Assembly (NCBI GenBank): GCA_021787395.1
Contig: JAJYLZ010000005.1
Coordinates: 39,366-103,365 of the forward strand
Direction: 5' to 3'
Length of the DNA stretch: 64,000 bases
Origin: Chloroflexota bacterium
GTDB taxonomy: Bacteria > Chloroflexota > Limnocylindria > Limnocylindrales > CSP1-4
A model generated the notes under the pieces. That model was given only the letters and a program-made list of their open reading frames with translations, was not told where the DNA came from and did not search any database. Of this stretch, positions 14,211 to 43,756 are shown in pieces; positions within the stretch are counted from its first letter, which is position 1, and the number at the start of each line of letters is the position of its first letter. The position numbers and the translations under genes are program-made.

Positions 14211-14354
14211 CCGACTGCGCCGTGGGCGGGGGAAGGTGCCGCGCCCAGGTGCGACCCGGCGGGCGCGGCGCCCTCACGCGGCGTCCGTGCACGGGAGACG
14301 GGCAGAAGGTCGTTCTGCAACCCCTCGTGCCATGGGTGGTAGCATCCCGTCCAG

Positions 14355-14518
14355 AGCCTTCGGGGCAGGGTGCAACCCCCGACCGGTGGTAGGGCCCGGC
14401 GCAGTCCGGGCGAGCCCACGAGCCAAGCCGCGGCGCAGTGCCAGCGGGGCGGCAGATCCGAGGCGAGGCGCGTCCTCGTCGACCGGAGCCGACGGTACAG
14501 TCCGGATGAGAGAAGGCT
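14355..14518 (+). ncRNA. FMN riboswitch (RFN element)
   Basis: AGCCTTCGGGGCAGGGTGCAACCCCCGACCGGTGGTAGGGCCC...GCGAGCC...GGCAGATCCG...CCGGAGCCGACGGTACAGTCCGGATGAGAGAAGGCT matches the conserved RFN core. Confidence 0.95.
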
Positions 14519-14589
14519 GTGGTCGGCCGCGTCCGCGCGGGCCGATCGCCCTGCCCCGTCGTGCCCGAGCAGCGACGGAGGCACAGCGC

Positions 14590-36402: not shown

Positions 36403-37080
36403 ATGCCCGTCCTCGACCGCCTGACGCCCCCGCCGCTGGTCGCCGTCTTCGACGCGTACGGCACGCTGTTCGACGTCCACTCCGCCGTCGCCCGGCACGC
36501 CGCTGCGCTCGGCGGAGCCGCCGGGCCGTTCTCGGAGGCGTGGCGCGCCAAGCAGCTCGAGTACACGTGGGTGCGCTCGCTGGCCGGCCGCTACCGGGAC
36601 TTCGAGGCAGTGACGGAGGACGCCCTCGACGCCGCCTTCGCGCTGCACCCGGCCGTCGACCCGGGGCTCCGCGGCCGGCTGCTCGAGGCCTACCGAGTCC
36701 TCGACCCGTACCCGGAGGTGCCCGAGGTGCTCGGACGGATCCGCGGCCGGGGGATCCGGACGGCGATCCTCTCGAACGGGACCGCCGCGATGCTGTCGGA
36801 CGCCGTGGCGGCAGCCGGGCTCGCTGCGCAGTTCGACGGCGTCCTCTCGGTGGACGGCCTGGGCGTCTACAAGCCGGACCCGCGCGTGTACGCGACGGTC
36901 CTCGAGGCGTTCGGGACGGCCCGCCGCGAGACGCTGTTCGTGTCCTCGAACCGCTGGGACGTCGCCGGAGCGGCCGCGTTCGGGCTGGCGTGCGTGTGGG
37001 TCAACCGCTCGGGCAGGCCGGACGAGTACGGCGACTTGCCGCCGCTCGCGACCGTCGCCACGCTGGACGACCTCGCGTAG
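36403..37080 (+). CDS. HAD-superfamily haloacid dehalogenase type II
   Basis: VAVFDAYGTLFDVHSAVARH...TAILSNGTAAML...LFVSSNRWDVAGAAAFGLACVWVNRSG. Confidence 0.9.
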   Translation: MPVLDRLTPPPLVAVFDAYGTLFDVHSAVARHAAALGGAAGPFSEAWRAKQLEYTWVRSLAGRYRDFEAVTEDALDAAFALHPAVDPGLRGRLLEAYRVLDPYPEVPEVLGRIRGRGIRTAILSNGTAAMLSDAVAAAGLAAQFDGVLSVDGLGVYKPDPRVYATVLEAFGTARRETLFVSSNRWDVAGAAAFGLACVWVNRSGRPDEYGDLPPLATVATLDDLA

Positions 37081-37223
37081 GGCCGGCGGACGGCCGCGGC
37101 AGCGCATAAGTCTGCGCTAAGCGGGCCTGCCTAGGCTCCGGGGTCCGCAGGCCAGGTCGAGGGCACCCGAGGAGCGACCGCCCGCGGAAGCTCGGCCCGG
37201 GCGCCCCGGGCGAGGAGGTTGCG

Positions 37224-37319
37224 ATGCGGGTTCTCGTGCGGGTCGCGGTGGCGGCACTCGGACCCTGGACGGCGCTGGCGGTGCTGCTGGCGGCGGAGAC
37301 GGCGAAGCGGTGGCCCTGA
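37224..37319 (+). CDS. Candidate membrane microprotein (31 aa) MRVLVRVAVAALGPWTALAVLLAAETAKRWP
   Basis: GAGGAGG SD 5 nt before ATG; hydrophobic core; C-terminal ETAKRWP shared with micro-ORF at 42634-42732. Confidence 0.5.
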   Translation: MRVLVRVAVAALGPWTALAVLLAAETAKRWP

Positions 37320-37567
37320 TGCGCGAGCGGAGTCGCCTCGCGGGCATCGGCTCGGAGGCGTCGAGCCGGCGCTGGTAGGACCGGGCGCGCCGCCGACGTT
37401 CCGGGGCGCGCCTGCCGGGCGGCTTAGTCCGCCGATCCGGCGGCGCCGTCTCGGGATCGCCGACGGCCTCAAACGGCACCCCGCGCGTCTGACGCGGTGA
37501 TACGCTTCCGGGCAGACTCGGCTCGTCCGATGTGTCAGCCGCGACTTCGATCAGGAGACAACCCCAG

Positions 37568-37858
37568 ATGACGTATGTGATCGCCGAGCCCTGCGTCGAC
37601 GTGATGGACACCGCTTGCGTGTCGGTCTGCCCGGTGGACTGCATCCACCTCGACGAGGGCACGGACCGCATGCTCTACATCGACCCGAACGAGTGCATCG
37701 ACTGCGGTGCCTGCGAGCCCGAGTGCCCCGTGAACGCGATCTTCCCGGAGGAGAGCGTCCCGGCCGAGTGGACCGCCTACACGCCGATCAACGCGCAGTG
37801 GTACCAGGACAAGGCGGCAGCCCGCGCCGCCCTGGAGGCGGTCAAGCCGCGCGCCTGA
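37568..37858 (+). CDS. Ferredoxin (7Fe/8Fe FdxA-like)
   Basis: CVDVMDTACVSVCPVDCIHL...IDPNECIDCGACEPECPVNAIF. Confidence 0.94.
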   Translation: MTYVIAEPCVDVMDTACVSVCPVDCIHLDEGTDRMLYIDPNECIDCGACEPECPVNAIFPEESVPAEWTAYTPINAQWYQDKAAARAALEAVKPRA

Positions 37859-40839: not shown

Positions 40840-41487
40840 ATGGACACGTCCCCGGCCGGCGCCCGCCCGGCCCCCGATCCCGACGAGCTGCGGATCCTCG
40901 AGGACCAGCTGGCGCGGATGCGGGGGATGCTGTTCGGCTACTCCGAGCGCTTCTTCGAGCGGATCCGGACGTACCTGGTGCTGACGCTGGCGCTGCTCGT
41001 CGTGTCGGGCATGGGCGTGTTCCCGGGCGCCGTGATCGCGGTCCCGTTCCTGGTGCCGTTCGCGTTCCTCGAGACGGGCTACCTGTTCTACTACACGGTC
41101 TTCGCGCGCCGCCACGCCGAGTACTTGGAGCGGGAGATCAACGCCCGCCTCGGCCGCGAGGTCCTGGTCGCGCACCGCCTCGAGGCCGCCTACTTCTACC
41201 CGCCCGACGGGCCCAAGATCGCTGCCATCTCGTTGGCGCGACCGCTGGGGATGATGAGCGCGATGACGCTCGGGTACACCGCCGGCGCGGCCGCCCTGTG
41301 GCTGGCCGGCATGCGCGGCCTGCTGGACCTGGCCCATCGCGAGCTGCTCGTCGCGGCGGCGCTCGTGTGGACCATCGCGATCGCCGCGTACCTGGTCTGG
41401 ACCTTCCTTGCGCGCCACGACGAGCGGCGGCTCATCGCCGAGCTTGACGCTGCCTACCGAGCCGGGGACGCGACGTCCCCCCGTTGA
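40840..41487 (+). CDS. Predicted membrane protein, unknown function
   Basis: TATGCT box 8 nt before ATG; multiple hydrophobic helices. Confidence 0.6.
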   Translation: MDTSPAGARPAPDPDELRILEDQLARMRGMLFGYSERFFERIRTYLVLTLALLVVSGMGVFPGAVIAVPFLVPFAFLETGYLFYYTVFARRHAEYLEREINARLGREVLVAHRLEAAYFYPPDGPKIAAISLARPLGMMSAMTLGYTAGAAALWLAGMRGLLDLAHRELLVAAALVWTIAIAAYLVWTFLARHDERRLIAELDAAYRAGDATSPR

Positions 41488-41501
41488 CCCTGAGGTCTTG
41501 C

Positions 41502-42488
41502 ATGCCGAGTCAATCCGCCGCCAATGACCTTGCCGAGCGCGCGATGCGGTCGACGCTCCTCTCGCTCTCGCACCGGAGGTCGCTCGGGCGGCTGGCCACC
41601 CGGGTCCCGGTCACCCGGCCGATGGTGCGGCGGTTCATCTCGGGCGAGACCCTCGACGAGGCCCTGCCGGCGATCCGCCGCCTGCACGATGCGGGCATGG
41701 GCACCACGGTGGACGTGCTCGGCGAGTCGGTGACCCACGCGGCCGACGCGCGGGCGGCCGCCGACCGCTACGTGGCCCTGCTCGACGCGCTCGCCGGGAC
41801 GGACCTCGACCGCAACGTCTCGCTCAAGCCCAGCCAGATGGGCCTGGCGATCGACCCCGGTCTCGCCCGCGAGAACGTCGGCCGCATCGTGGCCAAGGCG
41901 ATCGAGACCGGCGCCTTCGTGCGGATCGACATGGAGGACCACACGACCACCGACGACACGCTCGACCTGTGGCGGGCGGTGCGCCCGGCCGGCGCCGGCG
42001 AGGGCGGGGAGGGCGGCGCGGACGTGGGCGTGGTGATCCAGGCGGCGCTCCGGCGCAGCGACCGCGACGTGGACGCCCTGATCGAGGCGGGCGGTCGGGT
42101 CCGCCTGTGCAAGGGCGCCTACAAGGAGCCGCACTCGGTGGCCTACGCCGAGAAGCGCGAGGTGGACGAGGCGTACGAGCGGCTGATGCTGCGCCTCCTG
42201 CGAGCGGGCCGCTACCCGGCCCTCGCGACCCACGACGTGCGGCTGATCCAGCGGGCGGTCGAAGTCGCCAAGGCCGAGGGCATCGCCCGCGACGCGTTCG
42301 AGTTCCAGATGCTCTACGGCATCCGGCGCGACCTCCAGGAGCAGCTGGCCGGCGCCGGCTGGCGCGTCCGGGTCTACGTCCCGTTCGGGGGCGAGTGGTA
42401 CCCGTACTTCATGCGCCGGCTGGCAGAGCGCCCGGCGAACGTCTCGTTCCTGCTCCGCAACATGTGGCGGGACCGCGGGCGCGCATAG
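41502..42488 (+). CDS. Proline dehydrogenase
   Basis: NVSLKPSQMGLAIDPGLARENV...FVRIDMEDHTTTDDTL...VRLCKGAYKEP...FQMLYGIRRDLQEQLAGAGWRVRVYVPFGGEWYPYFMRRLAERPANV. Confidence 0.94.
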   Translation: MPSQSAANDLAERAMRSTLLSLSHRRSLGRLATRVPVTRPMVRRFISGETLDEALPAIRRLHDAGMGTTVDVLGESVTHAADARAAADRYVALLDALAGTDLDRNVSLKPSQMGLAIDPGLARENVGRIVAKAIETGAFVRIDMEDHTTTDDTLDLWRAVRPAGAGEGGEGGADVGVVIQAALRRSDRDVDALIEAGGRVRLCKGAYKEPHSVAYAEKREVDEAYERLMLRLLRAGRYPALATHDVRLIQRAVEVAKAEGIARDAFEFQMLYGIRRDLQEQLAGAGWRVRVYVPFGGEWYPYFMRRLAERPANVSFLLRNMWRDRGRA

Positions 42489-42532: not shown

Positions 42533-42559
42533 GGCCGCCGGGAGGAGGTTCTCCGGCGG
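42533..42559 (+). terminator. GC-rich hairpin downstream of proline dehydrogenase
   Basis: GCCGCCGG-gaggaggttct-CCGGCGGC; no strong U-tract. Confidence 0.45.
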
Positions 42560-42633
42560 CCCTCGCGCTGCGGTGGGCAATCACCGCGTCAAGTCAGCGA
42601 CCGAGTGCGGTGGCGCTGATCACCAGCGGCGGC

Positions 42634-42732
42634 TCACCAGCGCTTCGCCGTGTCGGGGAAGAGCGCGACGGCGGCGGCGATGGTCCCGAGGAACATCGTC
42701 GCTCGGTAGGCGTACCACTTGATGGTCTTCAT
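42634..42732 (-). CDS. Candidate membrane microprotein (32 aa) MKTIKWYAYRATMFLGTIAAAVALFPDTAKRW
   Basis: AAGGGA SD-like motif upstream of ATG; hydrophobic core; C-terminal DTAKRW shared with micro-ORF at 37224-37319. Confidence 0.5.
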   Translation of the reverse strand: MKTIKWYAYRATMFLGTIAAAVALFPDTAKRW

Positions 42733-42946
42733 CACCACGTCCCTTGCTGGTCAACCTGCGCTGCGGAGCGGGCTTCCGTCGGCCTCCCGCAGCCCTGGAC
42801 CGAGACCGTATCCCGAGACCTCCTCCCCGAGGAATGACCCGTAGGTACTGGTACCCCCCGGCCCGATCGGCACAGGTGCCAGCGCGCAACGCCCGCCGCC
42901 CCCGGGTTGCGCTCCCTGATCGGATCGGCTGGGGCATGATCCGCGC

Positions 42947-43756
42947 ATGACCGACACGACCGTGCCCGCGCTCCCGTCCCTCCCCCCGCACGGCGGCCTG
43001 CGCCGCCGCATCCTCGCCGGCGAGCCCACCGTCGGCGCCTGGATCAACCTGGGCTCGCTGGCCGCGACCGAGATCGTCGCCCGCTCCGGCTACGACTGGG
43101 TGGTGCTCGACCTCGAGCACGGCATGGGCAGCGAGGCGGACATCCACGCCCAGCTGCTCGCGGTGCAGGGCACCCCCACCGCAGCGCTGGTGCGCGTGCC
43201 GTCGATCGAGCGGCTCCGGATCGGCCGCGCGCTCGACCTCGGCGCCGACGGGCTGGTCCTGCCGCGCTGCGACGCGCCCGCCGACGCAGCCGACGCGCTG
43301 CGCTGGATGCGGTTCCCGCCGGCCGGGATCCGCGGCGTGGCGCTGCTCACCCGCGGCAGCGGCTACGCCGAGCGCACCCACGGCAGCCTGGCGTCCACGG
43401 TGAACGGCCAGGTCCTGGGGGTGTTCCAGGTCGAGTCCCCGGAGGCCGTGGCGGCCGCGGGCGAGCTCGCCGCCATCGAGGGGGTGGACGTCCTGTTCGT
43501 GGGCCCGGCCGACCTGTCCCACAGCATGGGCCTGCCCGGGCGCTTCGACGAGCCGGCGTTCACCGAGGCGCTGGACGCCGTGGTGGCCGCGTGCCGAGCC
43601 AACGGCAAGGCGGCGGGGATCCTGCTCTCGGACGCCTCGCTCGTCCCCGCCTACCTCGGGCGCGGGTTCTCGTTCCTCGGGGTCGGCTCCGACGCCGGCT
43701 GGGTCTCGTCCGGGGCGAGGGCCCAGGCGGCTGCGGCGCGAGCGGCGCTCGGCTGA
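42947..43756 (+). CDS. HpcH/HpaI aldolase family protein
   Basis: GAWINLGSLAATEIVARSGYDWVVLDLEHGMGSEADIHAQLLAVQGTPTAALVRVP. Confidence 0.92.
   Translation: MTDTTVPALPSLPPHGGLRRRILAGEPTVGAWINLGSLAATEIVARSGYDWVVLDLEHGMGSEADIHAQLLAVQGTPTAALVRVPSIERLRIGRALDLGADGLVLPRCDAPADAADALRWMRFPPAGIRGVALLTRGSGYAERTHGSLASTVNGQVLGVFQVESPEAVAAAGELAAIEGVDVLFVGPADLSHSMGLPGRFDEPAFTEALDAVVAACRANGKAAGILLSDASLVPAYLGRGFSFLGVGSDAGWVSSGARAQAAAARAALG

Follow-up and report, generated by a model that had tools for sequence, protein, structure and literature searches.

Bacteria are known to encode single-pass microproteins, among them CydX, KdpF, MgrB, AcrZ and MgtS, and the pairing of a short propeptide gene with a TPR regulator is known from the RRNPPA systems of Bacillota. 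The MalT/LAL group of LuxR regulators is, to our knowledge, not known to include one paired with a conserved microprotein, and the literature searched contained no such case either. That literature also held nothing on point about LuxR-TPR peptide systems in Chloroflexota or about c-di-GMP-I-GGC contexts, and no report of a leader serving ~30-aa peptides behind a c-di-GMP-I switch; a search of it for the RW microprotein family described here likewise returned nothing on point. The main text of a 2026 comparative study of Limnocylindria makes no mention of LuxR, quorum, c-di-GMP, riboswitch or small protein (PMC13212565).

The stretch of DNA analyzed here (the window, 64,000 nucleotides) belongs to a 3.45-Mb draft genome of a Chloroflexota bacterium. 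Its family, which we take to be CSP1-4 of the class Limnocylindria, is represented by 107 genomes in the comparison set, and the genomes of a sister family from the same order are about 1.1 Mb; this assignment is an inference, and the size and relations of the two families match those of CSP1-4 and Limnocylindraceae (PMC13212565, PMC6169038). All genomes compared are drafts. The 487-bp gap between the end of a HAD hydrolase gene (36403-37080, plus strand) and the start of a 4Fe-4S ferredoxin gene (37568-37858, plus), the latter found in all congeners, houses micro-ORF A (37224-37319, plus), which translates from the window into 31 aa, MRVLVRVAVAALGPWTALAVLLAAETAKRWP, followed by a stop. Its Shine-Dalgarno sequence GAGGAGG (37212-37218, plus) is kept in congeners G002, G003, G004, G009, and G010. 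The start codon of a further micro-ORF, A2 (37319-37378, plus; 19 aa, MRERSRLAGIGSEASSRRW, then stop), lies inside the stop codon of A (TGATG overlap); A2 has no membrane segment and its C-terminus is SRRW. Micro-ORF B (42634-42732, minus; 32 aa, MKTIKWYAYRATMFLGTIAAAVALFPDTAKRW, then stop) follows a Shine-Dalgarno-like AAGGGA (42740-42745, minus) and is flanked by the convergent proline dehydrogenase gene ProDH (41484-42488, plus) and the divergent HpcH/HpaI aldolase gene (42947-43756, plus); the plus strand at 42634-42732 does not encode the B peptide. The start codons of the micro-ORFs were picked by position and Shine-Dalgarno sequence.

Both A and B carry TAKRW near the C-terminus, and a plausible Shine-Dalgarno sequence precedes each. 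ORFs of 25-40 aa with a Shine-Dalgarno sequence and a [KR]RW(P) end at the stop occur twice in the window, versus a mean of 0.02 and a maximum of one in 60 dinucleotide shuffles, an expectation that rules out chance as the source of the A/B similarity. An earlier note on the window, made without database searches, had reported the coordinates, translation and Shine-Dalgarno sequence of A, a gap of about 490 bp around it, a second micro-ORF at 42634-42732 with its strand left unsaid, and the TAKRW terminus common to the two; all of these claims held, and the second ORF proved to be on the minus strand. The same note missed A2, which also ends in RRW. Between the convergent ProDH and B, we read directly a GC-rich inverted repeat, GGCCGCCGG-N11-CCGGCGGCC (42533-42561, unstranded), which is likely a bidirectional terminator as inferred from sequence alone; a T-run consensus scan for terminators did not call it. 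A GTG that overlaps the B stop codon opens the frame MSRRW-stop (42620-42637, minus), also present in three congeners (L005, L006, L010); it may be a peptide or a 14-nt duplication, and the choice is undecided. Elsewhere in the window there is an ordinary FMN riboswitch (14352-14521, plus), whose score of 67.5 bits for Rfam RF00050 barely clears the gathering threshold.

Comparative analysis demonstrates that A and B are real, conserved ORFs under purifying selection across the genus. Nine of the 11 congeners gave a good match in the single-sequence search with B, and the copy of G005, the tenth, surfaced later via its promoter element; all congener copies stop at or a few residues past RW, which the search did not require. 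A-type ORFs were found in G001-G006 and G008-G011, several of them at the syntenic position. A and B co-occur on one contig, 5-11 kb apart, in G000, G003, G004, G009, G010, and G011, as well as in G014 from another genus. Ten of the 11 A-type loci of the window's genus have A followed by a second ORF ending in RW, and four of the second ORFs of this genus contain C-x-H-[SG]-RRW. RSRRW is repeated in the second ORFs of G006 and G008. The SRRW units constitute a variable-copy repeat within a tiny ORF, with three tandem units in A2 of G006 (L076, 6224-6320, minus) and two in A2 of G008 (L075). Over 31 independent pairs of RW microproteins pN/pS is 0.33, and the 11 closest pairs show ~63 synonymous versus 17 replacement changes, where the unconstrained expectation is roughly 1:2.7. 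The pairs were chosen by peptide similarity and pN/pS therefore leans low; the synonymous excess in the closest pairs is still large. A DNA-level origin of the shared terminus, as a repeat or a terminator, is ruled out, since the arginine codons vary and synonymous changes dominate. The earlier note would have been refuted by a lack of conservation of the ORF, the Shine-Dalgarno sequence or the terminus in close relatives; since B is present in 10 of the 11 congeners and the A-type in 10 as well, it was not refuted.

A and B belong to a large family, the RW microproteins, marked by a basic start, one hydrophobic segment and the terminus [AG]x[KR]RW, which lies directly before the stop or close to it; 90 distinct peptides of about 30 residues were collected from 80 loci in 64 genomes. 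The B-type and mixed profiles match ORFs in most genera of CSP1-4, a family of uncultured soil and freshwater Chloroflexota, and, within the class, in one further family, where few genomes are involved; the profile search gave no convincing RW matches in the streamlined sister family, and in a phylum-wide sample stray matches alone were seen outside the class Limnocylindria. RW is followed by no residue in 33 of the 90 peptides, by one in 42, by two or three in 12 and by seven in two, and is missing in one. The best 15-residue Kyte-Doolittle mean is at least 1.8 in 93 of 93 entries (median 2.35), a measure of hydropathy and not of topology; on this ground only, the RW microproteins are likely single-pass membrane peptides, having one segment long enough to span the membrane. 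Searches of Pfam, NCBIfam and PHROGs profiles produced only chance-level matches, none above the cut-off. Two subtypes, MKANLARFT..ALTLGAGMRW and ..FRILLALSALASSALVLEAGRRW, are often found in tandem. A profile made from B-type members alone matches the A-type only weakly (E about 0.02-0.34), and homology between the A-type and B-type rests on architecture and terminus. A second ORF ending in RW is present in 19 of 93 loci versus 2.3% of random windows; this tiny ORF often has no membrane segment and keeps the RW terminus, which argues against a role of the terminus as a mere membrane anchor. Profiles built on RW members favor RW matches, so that the frequency of RW among profile matches is partly circular; less circular evidence comes from the first single-sequence search and from the finding of members flanking a LuxR regulator, the latter still using the RW pattern.

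Thus, the earlier claim of an undescribed family with membrane character held, given 90 distinct peptides, a hydrophobic 15-mer in all and no match in Pfam, NCBIfam or PHROGs. TAKRW, proposed there as the motif, is not the family signature, which is an invariant RW preceded by a small residue and, in most cases, by K or R; as for the suggestion of signaling or toxin peptides, the evidence leaves open whether the function is signal, poison or structural. Another short hydrophobic ORF, without RW, is MRSRVIRILTALGSVAALALAGGASIRGF in G001 (L133, 677-766, minus), with similar profile matches in G035:C68, G122:C48, G015:C3, G128:C119, and G062:C62 and frames of 35-45 codons in several genomes; these ORFs may form a separate microprotein family.

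About a third of the members (30/91 by string) are directly preceded by a c-di-GMP-I riboswitch. Fifteen of the 20 scanned loci contain 17 aptamers at or above the Rfam gathering score (RF01051, RF03167), and in one locus (L127) three aptamers precede five RW ORFs. The riboswitch loci sit after DUF5317 and GAF-GGDEF-EAL genes, which belong to the c-di-GMP machinery. The Rfam scan of the window detected no c-di-GMP-I aptamer at A or B, and the two c-di-GMP-I switches of this genome (L199 and L200, G000 contig C81) precede other, unrelated proteins, which rules out c-di-GMP control of A and B in the window. The proteins behind these two switches start with MFWDGYRWIDELAPG and MRKDFWDGAQWVTAPG, share an N-terminal WDGxxW and look secreted.

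The aptamer-free members have in common a 24-bp promoter element, present in most of the family, with the consensus cnaCCaGTACcaAnGggCcATggC, mostly located 70-130 bp before the start codon; its log-likelihood in 41 non-riboswitch members is 357, versus 79 after shuffling. The element of B, GTACCAGTACCTACGGGTCATTCC (42831-42854, minus), lies 98 bp upstream of the B start, includes the imperfect dyad ACCAGTA..TACGGGT and is the sole match in the genome at one mismatch or fewer to CCRGTACNWAYGGGNYAT. The element is also found upstream of the riboswitch aptamers, mostly at 65-70 bp; with a matrix built from non-riboswitch members only, 24 of the 29 riboswitch-linked entries reach or exceed the 99th percentile of shuffles. 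In addition, it stands before Flp-type pilin genes (GQGLAEYALILALIAIVAII) and before a conserved gene for an XRE-family regulator, an arrangement that, for the XRE gene, is also seen in the window's genome and most of its genus. The dyad may be of a type that dimeric GerE-domain proteins recognize, an inference made without binding data. A-type loci carry, instead of the 24-bp element, a conserved TAAG-N7-TAAG direct repeat with an 11-bp period, which in the window lies upstream of A (37107-37121, plus) and is followed by TAGGCT, a possible -10 box (37132-37137, plus); the inferred regulatory function of this repeat is tentative. A sigma-70-type promoter was considered and rejected, as the consensus scan gave no match.

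Several further genes were observed behind the 24-bp element. Flp/Tad pilin genes (GQGLAEYALILALIAIVAIIALIFLG) follow it in L350 and L358, with two tandem copies in L358. In many CSP1-4 genomes, the XRE gene (KMSQRQLAQQSGVDHSTISRLIRGDR) has GTACsAACGGGKGAT upstream at a spacing that hardly varies, and the loci combining the two (L345-L349, L351, L354, L356, L357, L365-L369, and L371-L375) make this gene a candidate regulon member. In L352 and L353 (genus g15), the element precedes an open frame of >450 codons with the helix-turn-helix LITIAEAARLAGVHRNTVRSWCSSGRL.

In 23 loci, the RW ORF is convergent with a gene for a regulator of ~1100 aa composed of the Pfam domains AAA_16, TPR (TPR_12, TPR_2) and GerE. 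An RW member adjoins this STAND-TPR-LuxR regulator in nine genera from two families. The non-HTH part of the regulator was detected in 103 of the 107 genomes of the family, usually as a single copy, and in two genomes of another family, and none was found in the streamlined sister family. Six RW loci were found solely by looking beside the regulator, where divergent members missed by the profiles lie 65-147 bp away (G012, G074, G075, G084, and G089) or, in G013, at 302 bp. The LuxR gene is not adjacent to the RW ORF in 12 genomes checked, including seven of the window's genus; here, as in several further genera, the regulator has no RW neighbor, but B keeps the element.

The explanation that we favor, with a probability of about 0.42 and hence short of an even chance, casts the RW microproteins as effectors within an attachment or social regulon under LuxR and c-di-GMP control, the function being inferred. 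In this reading, A and B are members of one class of RW microproteins, their translation also being inferred. The LuxR-type regulator would bind the shared dyad element and turn on the genes for RW microproteins, Flp pilin and the XRE/BldC-like regulator, and in many species c-di-GMP would then gate RW expression through the riboswitch. The RW product would use its hydrophobic segment to insert in or cross the cytoplasmic membrane and would offer its terminus to one conserved partner, acting as a small effector or adaptor rather than as a metabolic subunit of the neighboring ferredoxin or proline dehydrogenase. This explanation is supported by conservation, selection, riboswitch arrays, the common element, c-di-GMP gene neighbors and LuxR linkage. 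Binding of LuxR to the element is only a possibility, inferred from co-distribution, adjacency and dyad form without binding data. The explanation as a whole has no binding, expression or phenotype data behind it. Also against it, LuxR is not located beside the RW genes in the window's genus, the repeat upstream of A is different, the two c-di-GMP-I switches of the window genome precede other proteins, and the limits on A/B homology and on RW frequency given above apply here too.

The main and serious rival, ranked above all the other alternatives, is a propeptide signal: the RW peptide may be exported and cut, after which its C-terminal part (e.g., EAGRRW) would be taken up and recognized by the TPR region of the STAND-LuxR protein, and the regulator would then activate the RW genes, by analogy with SHP/Rgg and other RRNPPA systems. 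It is supported by the short basic-hydrophobic ORF with its conserved part at the C-terminus, by the adjacency to a DNA-binding regulator with a TPR region, carried by nearly every genome of the family, by the dyad-like promoter element before the peptide genes and the presence of several such genes per locus, and by second ORFs in which the C-terminal part alone is retained or occurs repeatedly (e.g., SRRWRSRRWRSRRW), a trait also seen in some RRNPPA propeptides (PMC9765709). However, pheromones tend to diverge for the sake of specificity, whereas the RW terminus hardly varies from genus to genus; an export signal is missing from several second ORFs, no dedicated protease or transporter was recognized beside the RW genes, and the non-adjacency of LuxR noted above also counts against it. 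A bolder form of this rival, rather unlikely but still possible, is a new class of peptide communication outside Bacillota with the STAND-TPR-LuxR protein as receptor, autoinduction through CCAGTAC..GGGYCAT and gating by c-di-GMP; if true, cell density and sessile-state signals would be combined on the peptide gene itself.

The remaining rivals are weaker. Membrane-active peptides of the type I toxin, lysis or antimicrobial kind are unlikely. Size, one hydrophobic segment and basic ends are reminiscent of Fst/Ldr-type toxins, and tandem copies are in favor; however, no Rfam antitoxin RNA reached the gathering threshold in the window (unknown antisense RNAs are not excluded), the chromosomal position is fixed across species and not mobile, control is by riboswitch and shared promoter rather than antisense RNA, and there are second ORFs without a membrane segment. 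A CydX/KdpF-like role, as small subunit or regulator of a membrane complex for respiration or redox reactions and tied to the nearby ferredoxin, cupredoxin-like and cytochrome oxidase genes, is also unlikely: A precedes cupredoxin-like and ferredoxin genes in two genera and cupredoxin genes adjoin other members too, but riboswitch-linked and many LuxR-linked members have other neighbors, and several differently controlled members coexist in one genome. Least probable is a leader-peptide role, in which translating the RW ORF would control a gene downstream of it through Trp/Arg codons or nascent-chain arrest, a reading suggested by the very short length, the Trp codon just before the stop and tandem RW codons in some A2 ORFs, and opposed by a downstream gene that varies between lineages or is convergent (ProDH, LuxR), by amino-acid-level selection on the hydrophobic core and by the hairpin after B; for B, whose downstream gene is convergent or lineage-specific, it is ruled out, a conserved co-directional downstream gene being absent from both B-type and LuxR-type loci, whereas A precedes cupredoxin/ferredoxin genes and the leader peptide is therefore not excluded for A alone.

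With the RW microproteins, an uncultured, globally widespread class of Chloroflexota gains a conserved gene set that annotation pipelines miss, together with a candidate regulon defined by RW peptides, Flp pilin, the XRE regulator, LuxR and c-di-GMP riboswitches. Riboswitches that serve ~30-aa peptides would surprise researchers of both riboswitches and small proteins, and the peptide-LuxR pairing makes peptide signaling outside Bacillota directly testable.

Among known systems, RRNPPA pairs (SHP/Rgg, ComS/ComR, Phr/Rap) resemble the RW loci in having a short basic-hydrophobic ORF by a TPR regulator, a conserved C-terminus and multiple or repeated copies, and the RW genes meet the RRNPPA gene-pair criterion, a TPR regulator with HTH, in 23 loci plus the six found beside LuxR. 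They differ in that RRNPPA systems belong to Bacillota and have no c-di-GMP riboswitch, uptake and processing of RW peptides are not shown, and the RW regulator, a STAND ATPase of AAA_16-TPR-GerE architecture, is not from the Rap/Rgg/NprR/PlcR/PrgX/AimR families. MalT/LAL regulators have the same AAA_16, TPR and GerE domains, whereas the RW-linked regulator pairs with a conserved microprotein. As in c-di-GMP-I riboswitch regulons (RF01051, RF03167), aptamers above gathering lie directly upstream of ORFs, but the RW leaders serve ~30-aa peptides, singly or in pairs. Type I toxins of the Fst/Ldr class are likewise short hydrophobic peptides with a basic C-terminus and tandem copies; they have an antisense partner, none of which turned up for RW in the Rfam scan of the window, and the regulation and conserved position of the RW genes point elsewhere. 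Finally, CydX, KdpF, MgrB, AcrZ, and MgtS share with the RW microproteins a length of about 30-50 aa, one hydrophobic segment and standalone genes; no sequence relation to them is seen in Pfam or NCBIfam, and the terminal RW, the control by a shared promoter and c-di-GMP, and the second ORF without a membrane segment set the RW microproteins apart from them.
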